The position numbers and the translations under genes are program-made. 64,000 nucleotides of DNA from Hyphomicrobiales bacterium (GTDB taxonomy: Bacteria; Pseudomonadota; Alphaproteobacteria; Parvibaculales; Parvibaculaceae). The number at the start of each line of letters is the position of its first letter. The stretch's first letter is position 1. The DNA lies in NCBI GenBank assembly GCA_016124805.1, contig WGND01000001.1, positions 310,001 through 374,000 on the forward strand. The letters are read 5' to 3'. A model generated the notes under the pieces. It did no database searches. It was not told the origin of the DNA and saw only the letters and a list, made by a program, of their open reading frames with translations. This document shows, piece after piece, positions 39,073-43,379 of this stretch.

Positions 39073-40194
39073 ATGGCCAAGGGTCCGCTGAAGGCCTATC
39101 GGGACAAGATCAAGAAGGGCGAGATCGCGGCTGATCCGGCGCAGGCGTTAGTCGCCGAGCATCTTCAGCGGCTGGCTGACATGCTGGCGGGCTGGCGACC
39201 GGGACGTCGGTTGGGGCCGCTGGCCATGTTCGGCATTGGCCGCAAGGTGACGCCGCCTGAGGGCCTCTACATCTGGGGCGGCGTGGGGCGCGGCAAGTCC
39301 ATGCTGATGGATCTCTTTTTCGAGAAGGTTGCCGTCTCGCCCAAACGCCGCGTGCATTTCCATGCCTTCATGCAGGAAACCCATGGCCTGATCCATGACT
39401 GGCGCCAGCGCGAAAAGGCCGGGAAGGTGAAGGGGGCCGATCCCATTCCCCCTGTTGCCGCGCAGATCGCGAGCAAGGCGTCGCTGCTCTGCTTTGACGA
39501 GTTTCAGGTGCATGACATTGCCGATGCGTCCATTCTCGGGCGTCTGTTCGAGCATCTCTTCGAACTGGGTGTCGTGGTCGTTACCACCTCCAACCGCCCG
39601 CCCGATGATCTCTACAAGGGCGGTCTCAACCGCCAGCGCTTTCTGCCCTTCATTGATCTCGTCAAGGACCGCATGACGGTGCTGCTGCTCGACAGCCAGA
39701 CCGATTACCGTCTTGATCGCATCAAAGGGCTGCCGGTCTATTACACACCGCTTGATGCGGCATCTGATCGCGCGCTTGATGAAACCTTCTTCAAGCTAAC
39801 CGACCGCAAAAAGGGTGACCCGGCTGTGCTGGATGTCAGGGGCCGCGCGCTTGATGTGCCGGAGGCCTGTCATGGCGTCGCCCGCTTCACCTTTCGTGAT
39901 CTCTGCGCCCGGCCTCTGGGGGCGGCGGATTATCTCAAGCTTGCCGAGACCTATCACACGGTCATTCTGAAAGATGTGCCGGCAATGGGGCCTGAGCTGC
40001 GCAATGAGGCCAAGCGCTTCGTGACGCTGATTGATGCGCTTTATGAAGCCAAGACGAAACTCATTCTCTCCGCTGCCGTGCCGGCCACAGCGCTCTACGA
40101 AGCGGGGGACGGCGCGTTTGAATTTGAACGCACCGTGTCACGTCTGATCGAGATGCAGAGCAGCGACTATTTCTCGTTGCGCGCAGCCGACTAG
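39073..40194 (+). CDS. zapE: AFG1-like ATPase ZapE
   Basis: AAA-type P-loop ATPase related to mitochondrial AFG1; in E. coli ZapE acts on the Z-ring. The 373-residue product has Walker A IWGGVGRGKSMLMDLFF, HFHAFMQETH, Walker B LLCFDEFQVHDIADA, sensor VTTSNRPPDDLYKGGLNR and the C-terminal RTVSRLIEMQSSDYF. I chose the ATG at 39073 (GGGG upstream) over a GTG at 39052. Its stop overlaps the convergent methyltransferase by 4 bp. In many alphaproteobacteria zapE lies near mdh, as here. Confidence 0.93.
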   Translation: MAKGPLKAYRDKIKKGEIAADPAQALVAEHLQRLADMLAGWRPGRRLGPLAMFGIGRKVTPPEGLYIWGGVGRGKSMLMDLFFEKVAVSPKRRVHFHAFMQETHGLIHDWRQREKAGKVKGADPIPPVAAQIASKASLLCFDEFQVHDIADASILGRLFEHLFELGVVVVTTSNRPPDDLYKGGLNRQRFLPFIDLVKDRMTVLLLDSQTDYRLDRIKGLPVYYTPLDAASDRALDETFFKLTDRKKGDPAVLDVRGRALDVPEACHGVARFTFRDLCARPLGAADYLKLAETYHTVILKDVPAMGPELRNEAKRFVTLIDALYEAKTKLILSAAVPATALYEAGDGAFEFERTVSRLIEMQSSDYFSLRAAD

Positions 40195-40814
40195 CCGGGC
40201 TTGCGGGCCGTAATGACATGCGATGATCCGACATTGGGGTGGCGGATGATCGATGTGAAGCCCGCCCGCTGCAGAAGCGTGACGGCGGCGGCAGTCTCCT
40301 GCGGATGACGGCTCCAGGGATTTGGCAGCCAGCTGCGGTCGCGGTTATTTTCGTGATCGCGCAGGATCAGCACGAGCTGGCCCTCTCGTTTCAGCACCCG
40401 ATTGGCTTCCATCAGCGTGGCGACAGGGTCTGCCCAGAACTGAAAGCAGTGAAGTGCGGCCACATGGTCAAACATGCTGCTCTGCCAGGGCAGCCTGTCG
40501 GCTTTGCCAAGCTGCAGATCATGCATGCCACCCTTGCCATTGAGGCGCTTGCTGGCGATCTCGAGCATGAGGGCGGAGGGGTCAATGCCGGCCACCATGC
40601 CGAGCGGCGTGCTTTCCGCGAGATCGCAAAGCAGCCGTCCGGTACCAAATCCGATTTCCAGAATGGTGTCGGTTGGCTGGGGCTGCAGCAGTTCCAGACA
40701 GCGGTCATAGCTTGCCCGATTGCCCCATTCCATCAGCCGCCCGAAGAGGCGACCGGTGACGCCATGCGGATGCATCGGCTGGGGATGTGTGATCCGGTTG
40801 TTCATCGCGATCAT
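40191..40814 (-). CDS. SAM-dependent methyltransferase (class I)
   Basis: A 207-residue Rossmann methyltransferase: motif I ILEIGFGTGRLLCDLAE, motif II GMVAGIDPSALMLEIASKR, and ALHCFQFWADPVATLMEANR, then VLKREGQLVLILRD. It resembles ubiquinone/menaquinone- or arsenite-type methyltransferases, but the substrate cannot be named; no CxxC arsenite site is seen. It starts 1 bp after the padR stop, so both are one unit and PadR may control it. Confidence 0.85.
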   Translation of the reverse strand: MIAMNNRITHPQPMHPHGVTGRLFGRLMEWGNRASYDRCLELLQPQPTDTILEIGFGTGRLLCDLAESTPLGMVAGIDPSALMLEIASKRLNGKGGMHDLQLGKADRLPWQSSMFDHVAALHCFQFWADPVATLMEANRVLKREGQLVLILRDHENNRDRSWLPNPWSRHPQETAAAVTLLQRAGFTSIIRHPNVGSSHVITARKPG

Positions 40815-40815
40815 C

Positions 40816-41388
40816 TCAGCTCTGCTCTATCGCGGCGGTGGCCGCATCAATGGCCTGGGCCATTTTCAGACTGGCTTCCCGATTAGCAGGTCTTTGCAAC
40901 CGTTGATCCAGCGCGAGCCTCATATTCTGGATCGCCCGAACGACCTCAGGTGCCGGACCTGTGCCGAAGCTCTCGCGGGCTTCCTTCAGCCGGGCTTCCA
41001 CATCGGCGATGGTGGCTTTGTGTTCGGCCAGATAGGCACTGCCTTCCGCGGTAATGCTGTAGCGCTTCTTGTTGCCCTCAACCGCTTCGACGGTCGCAAG
41101 GCCCATGTCTTCGAGCAGGGTCAGCGTGGGATAGATCACGCCAGGGCTGGGGCTGTAGGCGCCATTGAAGCTTTCTTCGAGATCCTTGATGACTTCATAG
41201 CCGTGGCGTGGCTTTTGCGCGATCAGGCCCAGAATGATGAAGCGCAGGTCGCCCTGATCGAAAAGGCGGCGTCTGCGACCATGCGGGCCATGGCGGCGGG
41301 GGCGACCACCCTCAAGGCCATCCAGATCATGGTGCCAGCTGTGGCGGCCATGGCGATGGCCGTGGCGACGTTTCATTTTTGCAAACAT
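40816..41388 (-). CDS. PadR-family regulator with His-rich N-terminus
   Basis: A 190-residue regulator. The winged helix (about 45-125) shows LRFIILGLIAQKPRHGYEVI, GVIYPTLTLLEDMGLATVE and NKKRYSITAEGSAYLAEH, the PadR/Vir pattern, followed by a C-terminal dimer helix. The first ~40 residues are full of His, Arg and Gly (RRHGHRHGRHSWHH, RRHGPHGRRRR), a possible metal-binding arm (inference). GGAGAA precedes the ATG at 41388; the in-frame GTG at 41409 lies inside the operator array. It probably represses itself and the methyltransferase. Confidence 0.88.
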   Translation of the reverse strand: MFAKMKRRHGHRHGRHSWHHDLDGLEGGRPRRHGPHGRRRRLFDQGDLRFIILGLIAQKPRHGYEVIKDLEESFNGAYSPSPGVIYPTLTLLEDMGLATVEAVEGNKKRYSITAEGSAYLAEHKATIADVEARLKEARESFGTGPAPEVVRAIQNMRLALDQRLQRPANREASLKMAQAIDAATAAIEQS

Positions 41389-41408
41389 GTTTTCTCCATT
41401 GAGTTTCA

Positions 41409-41480
41409 CGATATATCGCTTCTTAAGATATATCGAAGATCAAGATATATCTTCGAAATGGATATTCAAGATATATCTTG
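41409..41480. promoter_or_regulatory. Array of four GATATATC palindromes (probable PadR operators)
   Basis: GATATATC occurs at 41410-41417, 41427-41434, 41444-41451 and 41470-41477, i.e. at steps of 17, 17 and 26 bp. Each is the centre of a larger palindrome, for example CGATATATCG, AAGATATATCTT and CAAGATATATCTTG. The array lies 21-92 bp before the padR ATG, where its promoter must be. Confidence 0.7.
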
Positions 41481-41515
41481 AAGAAAAAGAGCGACCTGCC
41501 TTACGCGGGTCGCTC
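41481..41515 (-). terminator. Rho-independent terminator after the lipoprotein gene
   Basis: On the minus strand GAGCGACC pairs with GGTCGCTC around an 11-nt loop and runs into TTTTTCTT. It separates the lipoprotein gene from the padR operator array. Confidence 0.8.
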
Positions 41516-41543
41516 CCTTCAAAACATCAATGAGAACGGCTGT

Positions 41544-42080
41544 TTAGAGGCCGGTTGCCGGTGTTTCGGCGGCGGCGACCTTCTTGCCTGACGCATTTTT
41601 ATCGCCGTCCTTGAGGGTCAGCTCATAGGACCAGGACTGGCCAAATGTGGCCGACAACATGCCGAAGACAAGCGGGTCCGGCTTCTTGCGGCTTTCCTGA
41701 CGGGCGATTTCCAGCGAGAAATCAGCGGCGGCGCGGCGGTCAACAGGGGCAAAGCCGAGGGCGAGGGGGTCCATCTCGCGGCTGGCAAGCTGCTGCGCTG
41801 GCACGGCGTTGCGGGGTTTTGCTGCGGTTGTGCAGACGGGTGAGGTGTCATGAAGCAGATCGGACAGGGTCTGGCAGTCGCGCGCGGCGAGATGGCTGTT
41901 CTTGCTGTACATGACGCGCTCGCTCAAGCCTGCCATGGCGGCCAGACGGCCGAGCGCCGAATTTGCCGCGGGCATGGAGCAGCCGGCAAGGCTGAGCGCC
42001 AGCGCGGACAGAAGCAGCCCGCGCGAGAGCAGCCTTTGTCCCGAGATGTGATTTTCGGATCCGGATTTGACTTTGGTCAT
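41544..42080 (-). CDS. Putative lipoprotein, unknown function
   Basis: A 178-residue protein with a basic N-terminus and lipoprotein signal (GLLLSALALSLAGC, Cys near residue 34). The rest contains YSKNSHLAARDCQTLSDLLH, TSPVC (a possible Cys pair), ADFSLEIARQESRKKPDP and LSATFGQSWSYELTLKDGD. I do not recognise the family. I chose the ATG at 42080; an in-frame ATG at 42116 would put extra polar residues before the signal. It has its own terminator. Confidence 0.75.
   Translation of the reverse strand: MTKVKSGSENHISGQRLLSRGLLLSALALSLAGCSMPAANSALGRLAAMAGLSERVMYSKNSHLAARDCQTLSDLLHDTSPVCTTAAKPRNAVPAQQLASREMDPLALGFAPVDRRAAADFSLEIARQESRKKPDPLVFGMLSATFGQSWSYELTLKDGDKNASGKKVAAAETPATGL

Positions 42081-43379
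<1,299 letters not shown>

Follow-up and report, generated by a model that had tools for sequence, protein, structure and literature searches.

The four copies of the GATATATC palindrome ahead of padR are most likely, to judge from comparison of sequences, an autoregulatory operator of an NfeR-like PadR regulator whose gene would form an operon with that of a methyltransferase. They lie in a 64-kb stretch of DNA, the whole of which is called the window below. All four are exact and are assigned to the minus strand: O1 at 41410-41417, O2 at 41427-41434, O3 at 41444-41451, and O4 at 41470-41477. The four identical 8-bp palindromes with steps of 17, 17, and 26 bp that the sequence-only reading of this DNA had placed in the padR promoter are thus confirmed to the base. 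Zero-mismatch GATATATC is confined in the window to these four positions, and in the whole assembly (3,211,644 bases) it is found at 16 places, 4 in the array and 12 elsewhere. When the 155-bp gap between the two genes (41389-41543) is shuffled with its dinucleotides preserved, the shuffles contain on average 0.015 copies of GATATATC, with a maximum of two, reached once in 20,000 shuffles, while the commonest single 8-bp palindrome of the shuffled gap, taken from 5,000 shuffles, reaches three copies in two of them and four in none.

The regulator, P0001, is a padR-family protein of 190 amino acids encoded on the minus strand at 40816-41388, with the ATG at 41388. It comprises the PadR domain PF03551 (Pfam, 1e-17, 64.3 bits versus a cut-off of 27) and matches by sequence eight distinct solved PadR chains, the best being 3l9f (1.4e-8); three NCBIfam models are matched as well, none of them above its cut-off. 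The domain is preceded by an N-terminal extension rich in histidine and arginine, with eight histidines among residues 1-41. No cysteine is present in the whole 190-residue translation, and the extension is devoid of cysteine in 45 of the 77 homologues in which the script could define one, 70 of 147 being left undefined. The padR stop is followed after one base by a gene on the same strand (40191-40814) coding for a SAM-dependent methyltransferase of 207 amino acids (Pfam PF08241, 1.7e-18), and we infer that the two genes constitute an operon. On the other side of the array lies an open reading frame of the minus strand (41544-42116), lipoprotein-like by eye and matching neither Pfam nor NCBIfam; frames 37-41% identical to it precede padR in four related loci. 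Behind this upstream gene an intrinsic-terminator-like hairpin of the minus strand was noted by eye at 41489-41515, with an 8-bp stem, an 11-nt loop, and a T-rich tail at 41488-41480. It is not among the calls of the terminator scan, which considers loops of 3-8 nt only. The array is located between the padR ATG and this hairpin, and therefore within a promoter region of its own of ca. 100 bp.

Homologues of padR are carried by 9 of 61 relatives and, at the level of the class, by 55 of 387 genomes (E cut-off 1e-20 in both cases); at the level of the phylum the figure is 90 of 396 (laxer cut-off 1e-12), the window's own genome being counted in each. All these matches, together with three further loci and that of E. 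coli, make up a set of 147 loci, the window included, to which some genomes contribute more than one (G684 three, G748 and G511 two each). With start codons chosen by script, GATATATC is found within 150 bp upstream of the padR homologue at 109 of the 147 loci and ranks first among the 256 palindromes, the next being found at 9; an exact copy is absent from the same interval at 38. The first 150 coding bases, used as a control, contain it at 2 of 147. Of the 133 upstream stretches of 100 bp that are mutually distinct, 91 have a copy. An earlier count of 67 loci, based on a different start-codon rule and 260 bp upstream, gave an exact site at 55 and a site with at most one mismatch at 63, three loci having three sites and one having four; L069 and L071 have three sites in that count and not under the 147-locus rule. 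The pair GATATATC-N9-GATATATC, i.e., copies 17 bp apart, occurs in 7 of the 387 class genomes, in all seven directly upstream of padR, and the reversed-pattern control gave none among the matches listed.

The palindromes also have a preferred place relative to a promoter-like element. CTTG is found 19-21 bases before the first exact site at 49 of the 109 loci and before any exact site at 56, the window being counted only among the latter, while each of nine other three-base bins holds CTTG at 0-12 of the 109; among mutually distinct loci it stands 19-21 bases ahead of an exact site in 42 of 89. The commonest offset for the first exact site of the homologues is 19 (23 of 109). O4, which comes first among the exact sites of the window, has no CTTG at 19-21 bases, and O3 has one, at 19. 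This position rule places a predicted -35 hexamer, TTGAAT, at 41464-41469 of the minus strand, and spacers of 16-18 bp lead to a predicted -10 hexamer, TATCTT, lying across GATATATCTT at 41442-41447 of the same strand with a 16-bp spacer. The predicted -10 is thus overlapped by O3, while the padR transcript would start near 41435, with O2 at the start (about +2 to +9) and O1 in the leader (about +19 to +26). The consensus promoter scan does not list this promoter among its calls, so that the prediction derives from the comparison of homologues alone. The 8-bp core of O4 adjoins the predicted -35 and is embedded in an 18-bp perfect palindrome (41465-41482) overlapping it. A degenerate fifth copy, GATATTCA on the plus strand and TGAATATC on the coding (minus) strand, is located at 41461-41468, exactly one 17-bp step past O3; with three mismatches, it may be a chance match.

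The flanks of 108 homologous first sites yield the consensus TTAAGATATATCTTAA, in which, as in the scores derived from it, the symmetry is built in because both strands were averaged; without strand averaging the consensus is TT(T/A)AGATATATCTTAA. The flank scores in the window are highest for O4 (7.39), followed by O2 (7.01) and O3 (1.62), and lowest for O1 (-2.09).

We regard it as highly probable that the array serves padR, the gene behind it, as operator, in a self-repression that extends to the methyltransferase gene. In the mechanism that we infer, of which binding by P0001, cooperativity, repression, the operon, and the effector are all conjectural elements, each GATATATC together with its T/A-rich flanks would be the site for one PadR dimer. 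The -10 would be covered by the dimer bound at O3, the start by that at O2, and the leader by that at O1, the dimer at O4 would extend to the -35, and it is proposed that RNA polymerase would thereby be excluded, so that the regulator would repress both its own gene and the one behind it. An effector, perhaps a metal bound by the histidine-rich N-terminus, would abolish the binding and induce both genes. The motif, its phylum-wide link to padR, and its preferred place with respect to the -35-like element emerge from the comparison and support the earlier assignment of the palindromes to PadR, which very probably named the right protein. The cooperative binding of several dimers and the sharp switch that were suggested along with it are hypotheses. 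Counting against the operator reading are the 38 of 147 loci devoid of an exact copy, the silence of the promoter scan, the weak flanks of O3 and O1, and the fact that neither the number nor the spacing of the sites is kept within the genus.

The number of exact copies per locus in the set of 147 is none in 38 cases, one in 61, two in 44, three in two, and four in two, i.e., an array of four is rare (2/147), and the view that padR has here more sites than usual holds. The second four-site array, at L123 (G762:C4:400-1800), precedes a padR homologue in a genome of another class, and its steps of 38, 19, and 19 bp are not unlike the 26, 17, and 17 bp of the window. In the 67-locus count, seven other loci of the genus have two exact sites each, with steps of 17, 24, or 27 bp, and a locus of the family, L012, has three. 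Across the loci, the steps between exact neighbours range from 8 to 97 bp, the commonest being 17 (14 of 54, two of the 14 supplied by the window), 38 (8), and 27 (7). The term 'phased' is a loose one, as the step of 26 bp does not fit a multiple of 17, and in the helical sense it is wrong: neighbouring sites are offset at 10.5 bp per turn by ca. 223 degrees (17 bp) or ca. 171 degrees (26 bp) and do not share one helix face. Loci with one, two, three, and four sites at varied spacing form a natural series, providing material for testing how the number of sites affects the response of an autorepressor.

It is quite conceivable, though we would not bet on it, that only the core pair O3/O2 matters, with O4 and O1 weak or redundant and the switch no sharper than in the relatives. 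One or two exact sites are found at 105 of the 147 homologues, two are present in each of the seven other genus loci, and the flanks of O1 score -2.09; however, the best flanks are those of O4, while O3, a member of the proposed pair, has poor ones, and L123, from another class, likewise has one site set apart from three regular ones.

A further reading, which we hold as a tentative one of somewhat less than even chance, is that pairs of sites make up one long two-fold symmetric operator for a dimer of dimers, and not sites for independent dimers. Among 61 site pairs (steps 16-27 bp, at most one mismatch), 22 have a step of 17 and 9 a step of 16. Complementarity between the outer flanks of a pair, counted within each locus, amounts to 399 of 854 positions, versus a mean of 300 when the right arms are exchanged among pairs, and to 229 of 610 versus 173 for positions 5-14 alone, neither value being reached in any of 2,000 shuffles; the shuffling overstates the case, since pairs that share a locus, or come from related loci, do not count as independent. 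L089 has arms of 22 bp about a 9-bp centre, with one mismatch, located in the second palindrome. Against this reading, the steps of the pairs vary between 16 and 27 bp, the kinship of the loci inflates the result of the shuffling, and the window's own pairs are complementary at only 9, 6, and 5 of 14 flank positions. Taken together, the flanks suggest that some lineages form a higher-order complex with symmetry, of which the window's pairs would bear a weak trace. A bolder version appears unlikely to us: NfeR-like PadR proteins would assemble into a multi-dimer, two-fold-symmetric complex on ladders of palindromes spaced by ca. 16-19 bp, the ladder would have grown in this lineage to four or five rungs, and the system would have exchanged ferric reduction for a methyltransferase and a new signal. 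Upstream of padR in L089, L090, L008, and L007, the pair flanks are complementary at 14, 13, 12, and 11 of 14 positions, respectively, and by eye these pairs reach as far as the -35 on one side and almost to the start codon on the other.

That an unrelated factor binds the array is very improbable, as the motif is tied to padR throughout the phylum (109/147), and the seven genomes that a search with nothing but the motif pair brought up all have the pair before padR. Hardly any credence can be given to a role of the palindromes at the RNA level, where they would form an attenuator or a leader hairpin: the terminator scan did list TCGAAGATATATCTTGATCTTCGA inside the array, and relatives carry long inverted repeats, but the left arm would lie between the predicted -35 and -10 and hence be untranscribed, the tail TATATCTTAA has no T run, and the scan gives three such sites versus 2.0 in shuffles, and the reading was set aside on these grounds.

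The operator reading is best compared with NfeR (YqjI) of E. coli. Pairwise alignment of P0001 with NfeR, over the DNA-binding and C-terminal domains, gives 36% identity (52/145, residues 46-189, E 8e-32, one comparison), and both proteins combine a PadR domain with a histidine-rich N-terminus. In work by Wang from 2011 and 2014, NfeR is reported to repress its own gene as well as yqjH. The intergenic region of nfeF-nfeR (yqjH-yqjI; L051) has exact copies of GATATATC at 2019 and 2249, one near each gene, and presumably these are the very palindromes that NfeR binds. Their flank scores, 6.8 and 7.98, reveal flanks similar to those at the padR promoter of the window. According to PMC7981267, which cites Wang's work of 2011 and 2014, NfeR acts as repressor of the adjacent ferric reductase gene, nfeF, and an excess of nickel relieves the repression. 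The two systems differ in that the E. coli one has two exact sites spread over the whole intergenic region, with degenerate copies seen by eye, while in the window four serve one promoter, and in that the partner gene codes in E. coli for a divergent Fe(3+)-chelate reductase and in the window for a co-directional methyltransferase. Moreover, the assembly of the window has no SIP match and P0001 has no cysteine; in NfeR, N-terminal cysteines are needed for the nickel response. The system of P0001 probably works like NfeR; its signal may differ, because both a SIP-type ferric reductase and cysteine are missing, and as it lacks the partner reductase and the cysteines it is not to be classed as NfeR proper. 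The kind is thus already known, an autorepressing NfeR-like PadR, and the variant consists in the number of sites, the cargo, and the missing cysteines. Repressors of the PadR and LmrR type are winged-helix proteins repressing themselves at dyad operators, the dyad being ATGT-N8-ACAT; they differ from the window in both operator sequence and copy number. Literature searches, judged from the search results alone, returned no paper on the present operator. The candidate operator TTAAGATATATCTTAA with its promoter layout would apply phylum-wide to histidine-rich NfeR-like PadR regulators, and the targets of such regulators would therefore be predictable by motif.

The neighbours of padR were surveyed at 63 of the 147 loci. 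Of 51 downstream frames, 32 were compared with Pfam and 19 were dropped by eye as near-duplicates or for a wrong-frame look; of the upstream ones, Pfam was applied at 33 of 63 loci. Among the 32 downstream frames that were scanned, DUF2218 is found in 17 and SIP in 3. These padR-DUF2218 and padR-SIP loci of other Pseudomonadota have the same kind of regulator and mostly GATATATC upstream, and differ from the loci of the genus in what lies downstream, DUF2218 or SIP in the former and a methyltransferase in the latter. Neither SIP (PF04954) nor DUF2218 has a match in the assembly, which is 99.76% complete. In the genus a SIP match is found in 1 of 27 genomes, and an iron link within the genus was rejected, as the sole SIP/DUF2218 locus (G019, L169, 6,001 bases) contains GATATATC in three one-mismatch copies and in no exact one.

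As to a wider regulon, a genome search for further copies of the array, proposed earlier, revealed no second array among the 12 other single sites. Eleven of these are located inside open frames (stop to stop, unannotated, with L083 the least sure) and have flank scores of -3.6 to -18.6; the remaining one, L084 (G000:C12:140039), is a single intergenic site scoring 6.15, which starts 67 bp ahead of a gene for what we take to be a CYTH-domain protein. At 22 other loci of the genus taken for this gene, of which L191 has no readable upstream stretch, no counterpart of the site, exact or with one mismatch, was found at the 21 readable ones (200-314 bases upstream). With three mismatches allowed, the 17-bp pair is found at three places beyond the array, versus one forward match for the reversed control. 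A wider regulon was therefore rejected, 11 of 12 sites being in open frames and the intergenic one having no counterpart in the genus. With this lone intergenic site and no SIP or DUF2218 in the assembly, control by the array is most likely local, i.e., confined to padR and the methyltransferase gene.

Among the eight genus loci, the five with a downstream frame all have a methyltransferase there, while at the three others the script found no such frame. The enzyme is not the same throughout: four loci (L005, L007, L008, and L009) have an O-methyltransferase (PF01596) behind padR, and the window has another methyltransferase, which looks like a replacement of the regulated gene within the genus. 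The methyltransferase partner raises the testable question of what such regulators sense outside enteric bacteria. The methyltransferase of the window is 17% identical to the type of the four loci, the two having different best Pfam families and the same place behind padR.
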